Positions 1,089 through 23,160 of a DNA stretch of 23,442 nucleotides are shown piece after piece. The notes under the pieces were generated by a model. The model was not told the origin of the DNA, made no database searches, and worked only from the letters and a program-made list of their open reading frames with translations. Location of the stretch: positions 1 through 23,442 of IMG/VR virus record IMGVR_UViG_3300050821_008627. One strand, given 5' to 3'. The stretch's first letter is position 1, and every line of letters starts with the position of its first letter. The position numbers were made by a program, and so were the translations under genes. Origin of the DNA: a virus.

Positions 1089-1984
1089 CAAAGACGGTGC
1101 TCACAACCAAAATGGATCCAACCTACGACGACCGGTTGGAGGAGCAGTATCATTTTCCACGTACCTATATTCGGACCATGGAGGCGGCAGTTGGAGATTG
1201 GATAGTCTACTATGAGCCGCGTCGCACAAGTGGCGACCTTTCGAGCCGGGGCGGAAGGCAATCCTATTTTGCGACTGCGCGGGTTGCGTCAATCCGGCCG
1301 GATCCTGTGCGGCGGGACCATTTCTACGCGGACATTAGGGATTTCCAGGTCTTTGCAAGAGCAGTTCCATTCAAGGATGGCTCTCATTACTATGAGGCTG
1401 CTTTACAACGTCCAGATGGAGCCACGAGCAAGGGCGCGTTCAGTCGTGCCATGCGCAGTATATCGGAGAAAGAATACGAACTAATACTAGCTGCCGGTTT
1501 CGTCACCGTTCTAGCGGACGAAGTCTCGGAGCTCAACTTATCGCCGAACGCCTTCGCAGAGGAGCAGGCGACATTTGAACGCCCGATCATCGAACGGATT
1601 ATGAAGCGTCCGGTTCGAGAGGCGGCGTTCTCGTCCGCCATACGTAACGCCTACCATAATACCTGCGCCTTTACTGGTTTACGGATCATCAATGGAGGAG
1701 GGCGCCCTGAGGTCCAAGCGGCCCACATAAAGCCGGTGTCCGAGCTGGGCCCTGATTCGGTGCGCAATGGACTGGCACTGTGCAGTACAGTACACTGGAT
1801 GTTTGATCGTGGCTTACTGTCACTCGGAGATTATCACACAATCCTGGCGGCCGAAGGAAAAGTACCTGATACAATCCAACGCCTAATCAATCCAGATCGA
1901 AAGCTGCGTGTTCCAGACAGACCCGAGCTTTGGCCACACCCACAGTTCCTTCAGTTTCATAGGGAAGCCGTATTTAAGGGGTGA
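1085..1984 (+). CDS. HNH restriction endonuclease (type II-like)
   Basis: A complete 299-aa protein. Residues 1-150 form an N-terminal domain ('VGDWIVYYEPRR', 'HFYADIRDF', 'HYYEAALQ') of the kind that precedes HNH domains in restriction enzymes found with C5-methyltransferases and Vsr. Residues about 188-250 are an HNH domain (HNH_2-like): a Cys-containing 'NTCAFTGL', then 'AAHI' with His214, 'RNGLAL' with Asn228, and 'VHWMFDRG' with His237, giving the His-Asn-His metal/catalytic triad. The frame is intact, unlike both neighbours. ATG 1085 overlaps the vsr-like stop as ATGA. It would cut DNA at a site normally protected by the adjacent methyltransferase; the specificity cannot be read from the sequence. 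Confidence 0.82.
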   Translation: MTKTVLTTKMDPTYDDRLEEQYHFPRTYIRTMEAAVGDWIVYYEPRRTSGDLSSRGGRQSYFATARVASIRPDPVRRDHFYADIRDFQVFARAVPFKDGSHYYEAALQRPDGATSKGAFSRAMRSISEKEYELILAAGFVTVLADEVSELNLSPNAFAEEQATFERPIIERIMKRPVREAAFSSAIRNAYHNTCAFTGLRIINGGGRPEVQAAHIKPVSELGPDSVRNGLALCSTVHWMFDRGLLSLGDYHTILAAEGKVPDTIQRLINPDRKLRVPDRPELWPHPQFLQFHREAVFKG

Positions 1985-2046
1985 GTTGCATCGTTGGATT
2001 TACTCTGGGCCAGTCCTGCGCCGGCGTTCGGGGGGTAGGTTGCTCG

Positions 2047-2982
2047 CGAAAGTTTCCGAAGTCGAGTTACTGCTGGCCTCGCCCGAGTGCACCAATCACA
2101 CTTGCGCCCGGGGCACGCTGGACTTTGACGAAGCCAGCCGAGAAACCGCGCTGTACGTCCTAAACTACGCCCGCTCATTCCAGCCGCGCTGGGTGGTAAT
2201 AGAAAACGTCATCCAGATGCGCGCTTGGTCGCGATATGATGAACTGCTGGATGCTTTGCGGCGAGACTATAGGACCACGACGCAGGTACTTGACGCCTCG
2301 GATTTCGGCGTGCCGCAAACCCGTCGCCGTCTCTTCATATAATGTGTGACCGTAACAGGGTGCCGCCTGACCTGTCGGCACACAGATCGGCATATCGACC
2401 GTCCGCGCGTGACATTCTCGACCCGCCGGGAACGTGGGGGGCAAGGCCGCTAAACCGGAGGGGCGGGCGACCGAGACACTGGCACGCGCCAAGCGAGCGA
2501 TGGATGAGCTCGGGGAAGGCGTTCCTTTTTTGATCGTCTATTACAGCACAGACGGTGGTGGTGGTTGGCAGACCTTGGATAGACCACTGCGCACGCTAAC
2601 CACGCTCGATCGCTTCGGGCTGGTGGAATGGCAGTAGGGGGAGCCGACATTGCGGATGCTCCAAGTCCCCGAGTTGAAGCGGGCAATGGGGTTCAGCAAC
2701 GATTACAAACTGCTCAGGGGGACCCGAAGGGATCGCATAAAGCTTTTGGGCAACGGCGTCTGCCCACCGGTGATGCAAAAGATCGTTGCCGACCTGACCG
2801 GCATCACCAGGACCATCCCTCGTGATTCCGCGATCGTGGCGCCCAGGCCGTCGCTCGAAATGCCGGTCCTGTATTCGCCTGATTGCAAACGCGCGTCGGA
2901 TCGACGCGTGACCGTTCATTGGATGTTAACGATATTCGGCAACAATCGCCCGGTGCGAACCGGAACCGCCGCTCGTGTCTGA
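2047..2982 (+). pseudogene. C5-cytosine DNA methyltransferase, 5'-truncated, frameshifted, with in-frame TAG
   Basis: Catalytic motif IV reads 'LLLASPECTNHTCARG' (the Cys nucleophile in SPEC), motif VI is ENV in 'WVVIENVIQM', and motif VIII is 'QTRRRLFI'. The target-recognition region and motifs IX-X follow in other frames: 'CDRNRVPPDLSAHRSAYRP', 'GWQTLDRPLRTLTTLDRFGL', 'LRMLQVPELKRAMGF' and 'LLGNGVCPPVMQ'. Single-base losses are needed near 2340 and 2458 (GG to GGG would repair the latter). A TAG at 2635-2637 lies in frame between 'LVEWQ' and 'GEPTLRML'. The N-terminal SAM-binding motif I (FxGxG) is absent from the sequence between the HNH gene and motif IV, so even a corrected gene lacks its start. 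After motif X the frame runs about 60 codons further than usual, to TGA 2980-2982. This is the expected partner of the HNH enzyme. Confidence 0.75.
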
Positions 2983-3349: not shown

Positions 3350-4051
3350 CTATGCGTCCAAATCGCGGAACGCCATGACGAAGGATGGTGCGTCGCCGGC
3401 CCGATCGGCCGCGACTGTCAGGCGCATGGCATCGTTGAACCAAGCCACCATGCGCTCGACATACCGGCCGGTGCCGAGCGGATAGCAGCGCAACCGCCAG
3501 CGGTTCGCCGCTGCCGGGTCGTAATAGATGCCGCCGGCGTTGTAGGCCGCGGCGACCAGCGGCGGATCGAAGTTGGTTGCCCAAAACTGTGCCGCGATCA
3601 TCGCAGCGCCCGCATCGATGGACACGGCGGGATCTTCCAGCTCCGCGGCAATCACCGGACGCATGAGGACCTCGGCCGCCGTCGAAACCAATGTCTGCAT
3701 GCAGCCGACGGAGACGCGGCCGGGCGTCGCGGCATCCGAGACGAAACCGGCTTCGTCCCGGCGGGCTTGGCAGACCTTGGCCCGCTCGAACCGCCCGGCG
3801 GCGGATTCGGTGCAGATCGTGGCAACGATCAACTCGACCGGCACGTCGTGCGTGCGCGCCGCCGCCGTGATCTCGGCACCGAACCAGTTCCACACACGCA
3901 GCGCCGTCGCCGGCGGCCCGCTTGTGCCTTCGGGCGCCCGGCCGCCGATCGCAAGACCGGCCCGCCCGAGCGCCCAGGTGACACCGCCGAACGGTCCGCT
4001 GTGCGACGTGGCGAGCTGCTGCAGGTCGCGCGGCCAGTCCGCCGCAGTCAT
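3350..4051 (-). CDS. phage lysin, lytic transglycosylase (SLT) type
   Basis: A 233-aa protein with a lysozyme-like transglycosylase fold: 'VELIVATICTESAAG' with the probable catalytic Glu82 in the ES motif, 'VSVGCMQTL' near residues 114-121 (G-x-M/L-Q signature), and 'AAAYNAGG' near 167-174, the typical AYNAG box. It would cleave peptidoglycan at the end of infection. No signal peptide or anchor is seen, so export depends on the holin. It is the last gene of the operon; its ATG overlaps the preceding stop (TAATG). The reading frame is intact. It could alternatively be a virion-associated transglycosylase, but its place in the lysis cassette favours an endolysin. Confidence 0.78.
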   Translation of the reverse strand: MTAADWPRDLQQLATSHSGPFGGVTWALGRAGLAIGGRAPEGTSGPPATALRVWNWFGAEITAAARTHDVPVELIVATICTESAAGRFERAKVCQARRDEAGFVSDAATPGRVSVGCMQTLVSTAAEVLMRPVIAAELEDPAVSIDAGAAMIAAQFWATNFDPPLVAAAYNAGGIYYDPAAANRWRLRCYPLGTGRYVERMVAWFNDAMRLTVAADRAGDAPSFVMAFRDLDA

Positions 4052-17244: not shown

Positions 17245-18431
17245 CTATGCCGTCAGCGCCTGGCCGGACAGCGGCATGAACAGCGGGTGCGGCGCATCGT
17301 TGAGCGCGACAAGCTGCGTCGCGCGGGTCGCATCCTGACACAGACGATAAGCCAGCGACTACGCCGCCGGCGGCGACGGGCGCGCGTAGGTCGCGAGCTG
17401 CGGCAGTTGCTGCGCCCTCAGCGTCAGGTCCTGCGACGATATCGAGGCCAGCGCCTGCCACGCCGCGAACAGCGCATCCTGCCCCGCTGCTGCTGCTGCC
17501 GCCATGGCGCGCGCATCGATCAGCGCCAAGAGTTGGTCGCGTGCAGTCGCCGCCGCGTCCGCGCTGGTCCAATCGGTGCCGGCGTAGACCTCGGCCACCG
17601 CCGCGACGGCCGCGCCGCGCACCAGGTCAACCGTCGCCTGGGCATTCGCCGCCTGTAGCGCGAGCGTCGGCGTTCCGCCGGTGTTGGCGGCGAGGATGTC
17701 GTCACCCCATGTCGCCAGTCCGGCCAACCCGCCGGACGGATCGCCTTGCACCGACACCGTGCCGTCGGTGATCGCCTCGGCGTAGGCGCCGTGACGCCGA
17801 CGATCGCGCCGGCCGTAGCGGCGGAGTCTGTCGGCATGCCAACAATGCCGGGCAGCAGCGATGACAGGCTGTATTCCGACGCCAGTGGCAACGCGGTCAG
17901 CGAACCGACCAGGTTGGAGAGTGCGCCGACGAATGACGACAGTAACGCCGCCGGCACGCCGATCAGGGCGATGCCGATGGTGAAGGCTAATTGCACCTCG
18001 GAGACGACACCTTCAACCTGTTTCAGCACCGAAAGCGCGGTGTTGATGAACGATGACGGCCCCGGCTGCTCGCCGGCCTCGACAAAGGTCAGGTCGAAGT
18101 TGGCGATCTGACCGTTGTCCTTGTCTTCGCAGACCTCGTAATCGCAGCAGCGGACGCGCAACGGGCCGAGATAGGGATGAACCAGCGTGCCAACCTGATC
18201 CTGATCCTCGCATGCTGCGATCAGGGCATCGCGGTTGACTTCCCAGAGCGGGCCGATGACGTGGCCTTGCAGGCGGTATTGGCGGATTTTCCGCCCGAGG
18301 TCTTCGGTGAACGGATCGTCGCGAGTCGGAAACTCACGGATGGCGACACGGCGCCCGCCGCGCAGAGTGTAGTTGCCGAAACGGAAGGTGATGCCGCGCC
18401 AGATGACCGGCAGGGCGATGAAGCCGAGCAT
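17245..18431 (-). CDS. DNA circulation protein (Mu gpN), one frameshift and one in-frame TAG
   Basis: The N-terminus 'IALPVIWRGITFRFGNYTLR' and 'RKIRQYRLQGHVIGPLWE' matches the gpN family, a tail-hub/ring protein that follows the tape measure in Mu. A base is missing near 17791 (repair gives 'GVTGAYAEAITDGTVSVQ'), after which the frame runs through 'LALQAANAQATVDLVRGA' and 'QLPQLATYARPSPPA'. There a TAG (17359-17361) interrupts, yet the same frame continues with the family-like end 'SLAYRLCQDATRATQLVAL' to a TAG at 17245-17247. Total about 395 aa if the internal TAG is sense. Its ATG overlaps the tape-measure stop by ATGA. Confidence 0.76.
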
Positions 18432-20133: not shown

Positions 20134-20334
20134 CTATGACCCGGGCCTGATCGTTTTGCGGATGCGATCGGCGTGCTGGAGGTAGAGCAGCAATTCCGGC
20201 ACTGTCAGGCTCATGATGTGCTCTACGTTGCCCCAGAAGACGCCGGCATCGAAATAGGCTGCGAGGATTGATTCGCCGTCGAAGGTGCGGCCGTCTCCGT
20301 CATGCCCAAAAAACCTTGAATAACGCGTCAGCAA
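20134..20334 (-). CDS. second frame of the tail assembly chaperone (frameshift extension or coupled gene)
   Basis: A 66-codon frame opened from TTG 20334 ('LLTRYSRFFGHDGDGRTFDG', 'FDAGVFWGNVEHIMSL', 'LLYLQHADRIRKTIRPG'). It is in the -1 frame relative to the upstream chaperone and overlaps its last seven bases. In dsDNA tailed phages, such an open frame between chaperone and tape measure is the T extension of a G/GT pair. A start at TTG would be an alternative to frameshifting. Its stop lies just before the tape-measure ATG. Confidence 0.6.
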   Translation of the reverse strand: MLTRYSRFFGHDGDGRTFDGESILAAYFDAGVFWGNVEHIMSLTVPELLLYLQHADRIRKTIRPGS

Positions 20335-20597
20335 GCAAACCAGTCGACGGCGGCCAACTGATCGACACTGGACAACGGCACACCAGCAAGTTCCGAGATC
20401 ATCGATGATACCGCCGCTGAATCCACAATGCCTTCCTCACCGCGGCTGATGCGGTATGGCGTGCCGCAGATGGGCAAATCCTTGCCGGTGAGTGGGCGGA
20501 GCGTCAGTTCGGATAGGTCGCGGCCGTGTGCCTTGATAGGCGTCGAGAGAGTGACGGGAACCGGCTGCGGGCGATGCGTTGCGCCGTTGCCACTCAT
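20328..20597 (-). CDS. tail assembly chaperone (gp41-like, G protein of a G/GT pair)
   Basis: An 89-aa protein ('VPVTLSTPIKAHGRDLSELT', 'RPLTGKDLPICGTPYRISRG', 'ISELAGVPLSSVDQLAAVDW') of the phage tail-assembly chaperone E/41/14 family; the LTLRPLTGxD segment is the best signature. It is expected to bind the tape-measure protein while the tail tube grows. The stop TGA (20328-20330) lies in the sequence TGGTTTGCTTGCTGA, near which a -1 slip would continue into the downstream frame. The ATG overlaps the restored tube stop by ATGA. Confidence 0.75.
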   Translation of the reverse strand: MSGNGATHRPQPVPVTLSTPIKAHGRDLSELTLRPLTGKDLPICGTPYRISRGEEGIVDSAAVSSMISELAGVPLSSVDQLAAVDWFAC

Positions 20598-20967
20598 GAC
20601 GCGAGTTCTTCATAGGCGGTCAGCGCCTCGAATTTGACGCTGATCTGGCCCTCGCCAGTGTCCAGTTGGGCGAGGCCGGAATACCATGCCTGCTGATAGT
20701 TGTAGGTCTTGCCGTTGTCGAGTTCGACCGTGACGGTTTCATGACCATCGCGGCCATGTCTTGCAGAGACAAGGTGCCTTCATCAGAAATATTTGCTTCT
20801 ACTGTGGGGGTGACCGGCATTTTCTTGCGGCCATGCACGCCGTCTTGACCGGACACGCCCTCATACTGGAAATTGTTAGGCTGCAACTTGAAGTCGCCAC
20901 GCACGCGAAGCTGTCGGCCGCCGGCCCAGAAATAGGCCACGCCGCCGACGGTGGGGATAGCTGGCAT
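20594..20967 (-). CDS. tail tube protein (Mu gpM), one frameshift
   Basis: The N-terminus 'IPTVGGVAYFWAGGRQLRVR', 'GDFKLQPNNFQYEGVSGQDG', 'VHGRKKMPVTPTVEANISDE' and 'TLSLQDMAAM' is typical of Mu tube protein gpM. A missing G in the pair at 20745-20746 (C on the + strand) then leads into the wrong frame; the right one continues 'HETVTVELDNGKTYNYQQAW', 'SGLAQLDTGEGQISVKFEAL' and 'TAYEELAS'. The restored 124-aa protein ends in an ATGA overlap with the chaperone. AAGGAG precedes the ATG. It forms the inner tube of the contractile tail. Confidence 0.85.
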
Positions 20968-20980
20968 CGGTTGAAACTCC

Positions 20981-21208
20981 TTACAGGATCAATCGGAGCG
21001 GGATCGCGGCAACCTCGGGCGATGGCGGCACGCATTCCTGAAGCTCCGCCTCGAAGGCACGCAACGCATCGGCGTCATGGGTCTGCGGGCTGATCCGCGT
21101 GATGTAGCAAGCCACCTTCACACCCGTGACGGTCTCGCCTTCCCACACTCGAGCCGGCACGCCGTTCAGCGTGACAAGGTGATCCGTGCTGGTGATCGTC
21201 ATCCGCAT
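20981..21208 (-). CDS. small phage protein of unknown function, 75 aa
   Basis: A complete 75-aa protein: 'MRMTITSTDHLVTLNGVPAR', 'VWEGETVTGVKVACYITRIS', 'DADALRAFEAELQECVPPSP'. It looks like a small beta-rich domain with a C-terminal helix. GGGA is found upstream of ATG 21208; an alternative ATG is at 21202. It lies between the sheath block and the tube, where Mu has no equivalent. I have the impression that such proteins recur in alphaproteobacterial Mu-like phages but cannot name one. Confidence 0.55.
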   Translation of the reverse strand: MRMTITSTDHLVTLNGVPARVWEGETVTGVKVACYITRISPQTHDADALRAFEAELQECVPPSPEVAAIPLRLIL

Positions 21209-21221
21209 GCGGGTGATTCCC

Positions 21222-21434
21222 TTACCAGGTCGTTTCGGCGGTATTGCGTGCGTATCGATGTACGCCGAGCGTCAGCCTGCATTCCATCATTTCCACAGGG
21301 TCCGGCACGTGCTCGCACAGCCATGCGCACGATGCGCAGAACCCGTGCGCCGACGGGTCGATGATGTCGAACGCAACGACATGGACCCCGCAGCCCTCGC
21401 AATCGAATTCGCACATAGCACCGTCCTCTGTCAT
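21222..21434 (-). CDS. Cys-rich microprotein, probable zinc ribbon, 70 aa
   Basis: From the ATG at 21434 (ATGA overlap with the preceding gene) the protein reads 'MTEDGAMCEFDCEGCGVHVV', 'DIIDPSAHGFCASCAWLCEH'. Cysteines C8, C12, C15, C33, C36, C40 and C52 include two CxxC pairs 17 residues apart (C12/C15 and C33/C36), the spacing of a zinc ribbon, plus a third motif near C40. A hydrophobic 'HVVAFDIIDP' lies between. No enzymatic motif is seen. It may bind zinc and act as a virion or regulatory protein; the function is unknown. Confidence 0.6.
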   Translation of the reverse strand: MTEDGAMCEFDCEGCGVHVVAFDIIDPSAHGFCASCAWLCEHVPDPVEMMECRLTLGVHRYARNTAETTW

Positions 21435-21640
21435 TGCGCACCCATTCCCCACCAGCGTTGCTGGCAGGGTTCGCGGAACTCCGCGCACCAGCCTGAGTCA
21501 TTCCAGAGAATTAGCGGTATCGAGTCCTCCGGCAGGGGCGCTTCGCAATAGGAACAGCGATCGGTGCGCGCCTGGTCCGGCCCGCCCCAGCCAACCGCTG
21601 TCCAATCGAAGTTGGGCAGAGGCCGTATGGTTGCTGGCAT
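21431..21640 (-). CDS. Cys-rich microprotein after the sheath, 69 aa
   Basis: ATG 21640 overlaps the sheath stop (ATGA). The 69-residue protein has 'TAVGWGGPDQARTDRCSYCE' with a CxxC (C29, C32), and 'WCAEFREPCQQRWWGMG' (C52, C59), which could complete a four-Cys zinc site. Trp residues are unusually frequent. The next gene, also Cys-rich, overlaps its stop. A small zinc-finger-like fold is likely; the function is unknown. Confidence 0.55.
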   Translation of the reverse strand: MPATIRPLPNFDWTAVGWGGPDQARTDRCSYCEAPLPEDSIPLILWNDSGWCAEFREPCQQRWWGMGAQ

Positions 21641-23160
21641 CACGCCGCGAGCGTCGCGGGTGCTGCGGCGCTGGCGTTCGCCTCGACCGAGAGCAGGCGG
21701 AGCTGATTGAGCAGTGCGACAATGCGCAACCCGCCGACAAGATAGGGTGCCCATAGGACATCGAGGTGGCTCGGATCGGTGGCGTTGCGTTCGACCACGG
21801 TTGCCGCTGCCATCGCGTCGGCATCCTCGACCAGACCGTCATATTCCATCTGCCGGTACTGGGCGATGATCTCCGCTCGGAAGATCGACGGCGTAACAAC
21901 CGGCTGGCCCGGGCCGAACCGCGTGCCGTCATCGGCGAGTTTGGCACGAGGGAATTTCTGCGTTGTCGCCGATCTCAGGCGGCGGGTGACCTCCGCCAAC
22001 GTCGCGAGCGTTTCATAGCCGAGATACGACTGATCGGCGACGCCGTAGCGGTTGAGCTGGTAGGTGGTGACGCAGCGCAGAATGGACACGCTGCTGTCCT
22101 GGCCAACCGCAGGAAGCGCGATGCCGTTCGATAGCAGAGCTTGCTGATTGTCCCACGCGAACAAGGCAGGTTCGGGCGGCGCAAGAACGCCGGCAATCGG
22201 GATGGTCTGCAATGGCCGCGCTGGGTCCGCCTTGATCGGAGGCGCGCACGCACCCGCGAAGGCCGCAGCCCAGACATAATCCGGCATCGGGCTGCCATAG
22301 GTGCCGAGGACAGAAAGATGCGGATCGTTCAGCGTGTTGCCGAACGTCAGCAGGTTCGCTGCGGTGTCCTGCTTCGCAGTGAAGACGTGGCCGTATTTAG
22401 CGATCTTGTAGGACCACCGTCCGGTCTGATCGTTCATCATCGCCGTGGTCTGCGCGAGTTCCGCCGGCGCGGTCCATGGCGACACGATGAAATCGAACTC
22501 CATCGCGCCGATCGCCGCAGCGACGCCGGACAGATCGGGATCGCCCGCCCCGCCGGCCATCGCCGTGATCGTGCAGGTGAGCCCGGGCGGCATGACCTCG
22601 CCGCCTCGCGGGCCGTAGTAGGCCATGGAAATCGGGATCGTATTGCCGAGCGATCCCTTGTTCAGTGCGGTCAGTGTGAGGGTGGCGGAGCTGCCGACGG
22701 GATTGACTGGAAGGCTGGGCGTGGTCTGCATTGTGGCGAGAACCTTTGCCGTCGCCGCCGTCGCGGTATCACCGGCCGCAATGGCGGTGGCGACGGACAC
22801 ACCGCCGACGCGCAACGGGATGACGCCTGGCGCGGTCGCACTGCCCGCAAAGGTGATACTGCCCGCCGCCGCACTGGACGCGGCGGCGTCGGCGAAGGGT
22901 GGTGTCCACAACTCGGTAGTCGGATCGTTGGCGCGGAATGCGCCGACCTCGGCCGCGAGCTGCGAGGCGGCGCCGAACTCCGACGCCGCGACCGCCGGCG
23001 AGGCGATCCACACCGGCATCGTCTGGCCGGCGCCGATCGCCTGGCCAAGGATCAGCGCCCGCTGGTTCGGCTGATTCGCGCCGGCCTGCGAGTTGTCGAA
23101 CTCCGCATAGAACAGCGGGATCTTCAGGCCCGGCGGAATGGTTGCGAACGAAATGGACAT
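21640..23160 (-). CDS. contractile tail sheath protein (Mu gpL)
   Basis: An intact 506-aa protein, the length of Mu sheath proteins. The start 'MSISFATIPPGLKIPLFYAE' followed by 'DNSQAGANQPNQRALILGQ' is diagnostic. Further features are 'FGAASQLAAEVGAFRANDPT', 'FDFIVSPWTAPAEL', 'YKIAKYGHVFTAKQDTA', 'LLSNGIALPAVGQDSSVSIL' and the C-terminal 'RCVTTYQLNRYGVADQSYLG' core. It polymerises around the tube and contracts at infection. GGGAG sits seven bases upstream of the ATG. The clean frame over 1.5 kb is a useful control against the indels elsewhere. Confidence 0.92.
   Translation of the reverse strand: MSISFATIPPGLKIPLFYAEFDNSQAGANQPNQRALILGQAIGAGQTMPVWIASPAVAASEFGAASQLAAEVGAFRANDPTTELWTPPFADAAASSAAAGSITFAGSATAPGVIPLRVGGVSVATAIAAGDTATAATAKVLATMQTTPSLPVNPVGSSATLTLTALNKGSLGNTIPISMAYYGPRGGEVMPPGLTCTITAMAGGAGDPDLSGVAAAIGAMEFDFIVSPWTAPAELAQTTAMMNDQTGRWSYKIAKYGHVFTAKQDTAANLLTFGNTLNDPHLSVLGTYGSPMPDYVWAAAFAGACAPPIKADPARPLQTIPIAGVLAPPEPALFAWDNQQALLSNGIALPAVGQDSSVSILRCVTTYQLNRYGVADQSYLGYETLATLAEVTRRLRSATTQKFPRAKLADDGTRFGPGQPVVTPSIFRAEIIAQYRQMEYDGLVEDADAMAAATVVERNATDPSHLDVLWAPYLVGGLRIVALLNQLRLLSVEANASAAAPATLAA

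Follow-up and report, generated by a model that had tools for sequence, protein, structure and literature searches.

Between the tail sheath and tail tube genes of the phage analysed here, three small reading frames are found that probably form a replaceable accessory cassette (cargo of a moron-like kind) that recombination has brought to this junction; the tail of the phage is of the SfV/Mu type. The sequence under study, hereafter the window, is an IMG/VR virus record of 23,442 bases, and the three frames, named A, B and C, are located on its minus strand. That these frames are replaceable is suggested because an unrelated gene occupies the same junction in the nearest relative, the tube gene directly follows the sheath elsewhere, and relatives of B and C are located away from tail operons.

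The sheath-tube junction in the window and in its relatives

On the minus strand, the order of the genes is sheath, A, B, C, tube, tail assembly chaperone, tape measure, N, hub and baseplate wedge. The gene that a preliminary description of this DNA had taken for a sheath is indeed one; it is intact, encodes 506 residues (21640..23160, minus strand), and matches PF04984 (E 2.3e-14), PF17482 (E 8.4e-14) and phrog_165 (E 1.5e-157). The tube gene (20597..20967, minus strand; PF10618, E 5.7e-13) is frame-broken near 20741. Downstream of it are located the tail assembly chaperone gene (PF10109), the tape measure gene (recognised by a profile match), and those for the DNA-circulation protein N (PF07157), the hub (phrog_177) and the baseplate wedge protein (phrog_6). 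These families, and the usual order in which they appear, are those of the SfV and Mu tail modules, from which the window differs by the presence of three small genes between sheath and tube. After the tail assembly chaperone gene there is an overlapping second frame (20134-20600, minus strand), which we take to resemble the programmed-frameshift pair of other phage tails. Elsewhere in the window, a fragment of a DNA methyltransferase was found at 1908-2342 (plus strand; phrog_116, E 1.1e-21), with adjoining frames that look like more pieces of it, as well as a protein with a transglycosylase SLT domain at 3350-4051 (minus strand; PF01464, E 9e-8), possibly a lysis or tail-tip enzyme.

Relatives of the sheath were found in 33 viral loci, four of which (L019, L021, L027 and L034) are cut off at the junction. 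Apart from the nearest relative, L002, the tube gene directly follows the sheath in every readable junction (28/28), the arrangement that the preliminary description had mentioned for Mu; 26 of these were read by a script, with gaps of -1 to 18 bases, and two (L020 and L024) by eye. For the latter two a fusion of sheath and tube was considered and rejected, given that a stop is present in both. In the phage collection, all 28 records listed as matching both genes together have 28-121 bases between the ends of the sheath and tube matches, as obtained by subtracting match ends, a distance that could not accommodate a gene; this count excludes two records with two places and two that lacked a listed sheath row. 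Neither A nor B is present at any of the 29 readable junctions of the sheath relatives, L002 included, and A has no counterpart in the 47 records of relatives that were searched (out of those of 54 relative loci). Absence of the pair from relatives had been named beforehand as one of the outcomes that would tell against the preliminary proposal, and it is largely what was found. The idea of a two-gene pair at the position of the tube was correct in that A and B are located there, but the insert also contains C, which precedes the tube at 20967.

The sheath of L002 is 79% identical to that of the window. DNA homology between the two ends at 21687, within the final codons of the sheath gene (47 bases from its last base), and restarts at 20973, 6 bases before the ATG of the tube. 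The replaced segment defined by these limits has 713 bases (20974..21686, minus strand) and includes the C-terminal tail of the sheath together with A, B and C. In L002 the junction holds a single unrelated gene of 250 residues (L002:2422-3174) that matches phrog_5606 (E 1.2e-44) and the RTasTM family of PADLOC (E 9.4e-8), and that shares 40% identity, along 80% of its length, with ORF1 of the Z region of P2-EC58, annotated as a lysogenic protein. Another gene of P2-EC58 sits in a variable region thought to have been horizontally acquired, according to an excerpt of a paper on Abi polymerases (PMC9508834). A blastn search with the 713-base insert gave no match in plasmids or phages, the inserted DNA lacks direct repeats of at least 12 bases, and its GC content (0.61-0.66) is not different from that of the surroundings (0.57-0.73).

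Classical morons carry their own promoter and terminator; in general, morons and other accessory cargo lie between genes that are adjacent in relatives, are absent or replaced in close relatives, and have a base composition unlike that of the phage. The insert resembles morons and lysogenic-conversion genes, such as the Z region of P2 and ORF1 of P2-EC58, in that extra genes are found between genes that are neighbours in relatives, and the likeness to the P2-EC58 Z region extends to the different gene that occupies the same place in L002 and is itself related to ORF1. In contrast with classical morons, A, B and C show no promoter or terminator match and no odd GC content, A starts on the stop codon of the sheath, and the site is the sheath-tube junction. 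Given that the GC content of the insert is like that of its flanks, it is called here moron-like and not a classical moron. A further comparison is with the defence hotspots of P2-like phages, which, as described in an excerpt of PMC9122126 (2022), are located near cos, in P2 between gpA and gpQ, span approx. 1-5 kb and carry tested defence systems. Variable cargo between two conserved genes is common to the hotspots of that excerpt and to the window, whereas here the cargo amounts to 0.7 kb, is located in the tail operon and shows no known defence gene in A, B or C.

Coding evidence for the three frames

Frame C (75 residues; 20981..21208, minus strand), located between B and the tube, belongs to a family of small phage proteins. 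Its relatives were found at 18 loci (L038-L055), of which 14 were kept and, together with the window, produced an alignment of 15 rows; L040, L046 and L047 were left out as repeats of others, and L054 for being cut. The family corresponds to a conserved phage protein of approx. 75 residues with the motif NGVPARVWEG. Using a codon model trained with the tail genes of the window and L002, C scored 0.262 bits per codon, within the range of true genes, and in the synonymous-codon test it reached a z of 3.79; in this test 76 shadow frames ranged from -1.99 to 4.23 and 39 true pieces from 1.16 to 6.13. The members of the family that were tested had no Pfam match, and no relative of C was found in the phage collection. 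Its structural model is fair (pLDDT 84), with three strands and a helix; the best result of the fold search (Z 4.8, kinase lobes) is not telling, and no viral match was obtained at E <= 0.001. No interruption is seen in the frames of the sheath, B or C.

The two frames of 69 and 70 residues reported in the preliminary description were both confirmed on the minus strand, as was their ATGA overlap, present at 21434-21431. Frame B (70 residues; 21222..21434, minus strand) has cysteines at positions 8, 12, 15, 33, 36, 40 and 52 that include two CxxC motifs (C12/C15 and C33/C36) with the spacing CxxC-x17-CxxC, and it is the sole frame with two such motifs among the 94 ORFs of 60-110 residues in the window. 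Of the CxxC pairs attributed to both proteins, those of B stand, whereas A has only one. A relative of B that is 63% identical over 52 residues was found in L035; the protein of L036 is the same, so that there is one independent relative, and a candidate in L037 (38% over 40 residues) was dropped as unlike. Residues C12, C15, C33, C36 and C40 are conserved in L035, while C8 and C52 are not. Along the 50 aligned codons there are 31 identical residues, 15 of which are specified by different codons, and the three codon positions differ 15, 13 and 22 times, respectively, a pattern that suits a protein under selection. This comparison with its relative speaks for B being a gene. The start of the L035 protein aligns with Met7 of B, and a Shine-Dalgarno-like GAGGAC is found upstream in both; for these reasons the real start of B may be Met7 (21416), which would give a product of 64 residues. 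Therefore, of the coupling through ATGA that had been proposed for B, the overlap exists, but the start that it provides may be unused.

Relatives of B were detected neither in phages or plasmids nor in genome contigs, the last of which were searched with the B alignment. A scan with its cysteine motif gave at least 119 stretches, 36 of them open in register, and inspection by eye revealed no B relative among the matches listed. B has no Pfam match at E <= 1, its best PHROGs match (E 0.11) is unconvincing, and no match was obtained in NCBIfam or, by sequence, in the PDB. Structure prediction, one of the checks put forward in the preliminary description, yielded a poor model (pLDDT 60, from a two-row alignment) in which a hairpin precedes a helix, the latter beginning at the second CxxC, an arrangement reminiscent of a treble clef. 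With this poor model as the query, the fold search gave one match, 2mmv (Z 2.6, rmsd 4.7 over 65 residues), which is uninformative. B is predicted to be, probably, a small protein of the zinc-finger type. Its CxxC-x17-CxxC spacing, and perhaps the hairpin and helix of the poor model, are shared with small zinc-ribbon and treble-clef proteins of phages, from which it differs by the lack of matches to Pfam, NCBIfam or PDB sequences.

Frame A (69 residues; 21431..21640, minus strand) begins on the stop codon of the sheath (TGATG), the first base of its ATG being the final A of the sheath TGA, and the pair had thus been correctly described as directly following the sheath. It has cysteines at positions 29, 32, 52 and 59, i.e., one CxxC (C29-S-Y-C32) and C52-x6-C59. 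At least one CxxC is present in 12 of the 94 window ORFs of 60-110 residues; the motif is therefore common by chance and in A means little by itself. No relatives of A were found in viral contigs, phages or genome contigs, where the scans of the viral and genome_contigs sets require exact short peptides, so that distant relatives may escape them. The only plasmid match (E 0.8, 37% identity), located within an FMN transferase, was rejected. Two DNA motif scans gave 2 and 6 stretches, and none of the eight translations is a relative; the search of the PDB by sequence gave a single, chance-like match (E 0.051). The homology check had in this way a mixed outcome, with one independent relative for B (that of L035), 18 loci for C and none for A, and the notion of two tiny zinc proteins divides along the same line: B is probably metal-binding, with cysteines conserved in its relative, while A has no relative to be compared with.

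In the codon model A scored -0.043 and B -0.025 bits per codon, each the best of its six frames yet below 41 of the 42 true-gene pieces, and their z values in the synonymous-codon test were 1.87 and 2.21, respectively. Codon usage leaves both frames unseparated from shadow frames and proves neither. A is an orphan that is a candidate gene by its position only; it may be a small zinc protein similar to B, or else no gene.

It is somewhat unlikely that A, and perhaps B as it is read here, is untranslated, being either a chance frame in GC-rich DNA or part of the wreckage of a decaying prophage or an error-rich contig. Such an origin agrees with the orphan condition of A, with its codon scores in the range of shadow ORFs, and with the state of the adjoining genes for the tube, tail assembly chaperone, tape measure and hub, which are frame-broken. 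Compared with relatives, the broken tail region extends over 20967-15768 (minus strand): the tube of L002 matches the window in two frames (20967-20743 and 20740-20597), a stop lies within the match of the tail assembly chaperone, that of the tape measure is scattered over several frames, and the hub gene is divided between two frames. The record may be a decaying prophage or a contig with errors. Nevertheless, A starts exactly on the sheath stop, ends in the overlap with B and has its best codon score in the frame as read, and in the case of B the comparison with its relative shows the 15 synonymous changes among identical residues described above. As a separate observation, N seems by eye to change frame near 17650.

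Putative expression and role of the cassette

Between 20700 and 21900 of the window there are no promoter-like matches, as scanned with the sigma-70 consensus only, and no terminator-like matches; no promoter-like match is found directly before the cargo gene of L002 either, and Rfam gave no match on 20500-22000. Since the insert lacks a recognisable promoter or terminator, A, B and C would probably be transcribed with the late tail mRNA. From this mRNA, A would be translated by ribosomes that reinitiate at the stop of the sheath, and B either by coupling or from the GAGGAC that precedes Met7; C would use a site of its own, as would the tube after it, and the AAGGAG of the tube overlaps the stop TAA of C. 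The product of B is expected to bind one zinc ion through C12, C15, C33 and C36, in a site of the treble-clef or ribbon type, and to act within the cell, where its targets would be functions of the host or of competitors, and not in the virion. A late host-directed role is possible for A and B.

The places where relatives of B and C are found differ from the tail operon. L035 is a record of 34.7 kb from another temperate phage, in the early region of which the relative of B is located approx. 1.5 kb from an integrase gene and surrounded by small genes with the same orientation as the latter; Mu GpP-like and baseplate J proteins are likewise encoded by this phage. When the neighbours of C were examined with Pfam at eight loci, a replication, recombination or DNA-methylation gene was present in five of them (L042, L044, L045, L048 and L051); L050 and L052 had no Pfam match, and L055 showed DUF families. 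No sheath match was obtained for any of the 19 tested records that carry relatives of B or C, L035 included, although these records may be fragments, which suggests that the B and C families occur without this sheath.

A different possibility is that A, B and C act in the lysogen against other phages, as a lysogenic-conversion or defence cassette whose promoter was missed by the scan. The relationship of the L002 gene at the same junction with a lysogenic gene of the P2 Z region and with the RTasTM family of PADLOC would fit this role, and so would the defence hotspots between conserved genes of P2-like prophages, as presented in the excerpt of PMC9122126. We consider it unlikely, given that A, B and C have no PADLOC match at E <= 1, that no promoter match was found, and that the relatives of B and C are located in early regions and not in known defence loci. 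That A and B are assembly factors of the sheath or tube, as the chaperone or capping role of the preliminary description would have it, is suggested by their position and translational coupling only and is very improbable, since they are absent from all 29 readable junctions, even next to a sheath 79% identical, downstream there is already a gene for a tail assembly chaperone of the usual kind (PF10109), and B and C have relatives in records, possibly fragments, without a sheath match.

With a replaceable cassette as the preferred reading, most of what is seen at this junction would be ordinary phage mosaicism, and the junction has a modest chance of being a hotspot for cargo. Such a hotspot is possible, and because only one relative has a different cargo, the case for it consists of two phages. 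A more specific version, which we hold to be rather unlikely, is that of an undescribed hotspot where a gene similar to those of the P2 Z region and RTasTM is swapped for cysteine-rich microproteins, B and A being zinc proteins for defence or counter-defence that are timed late by reinitiation. Cargo between sheath and tube is unusual among the relatives examined. These results also call for caution, as the position in a tail operon is, taken alone, a poor ground for assigning a structural role to small genes. If more relatives show changing cargo, the sheath-tube junction would serve as an anchor with which short viral contigs could be searched for small genes of defence or counter-defence.
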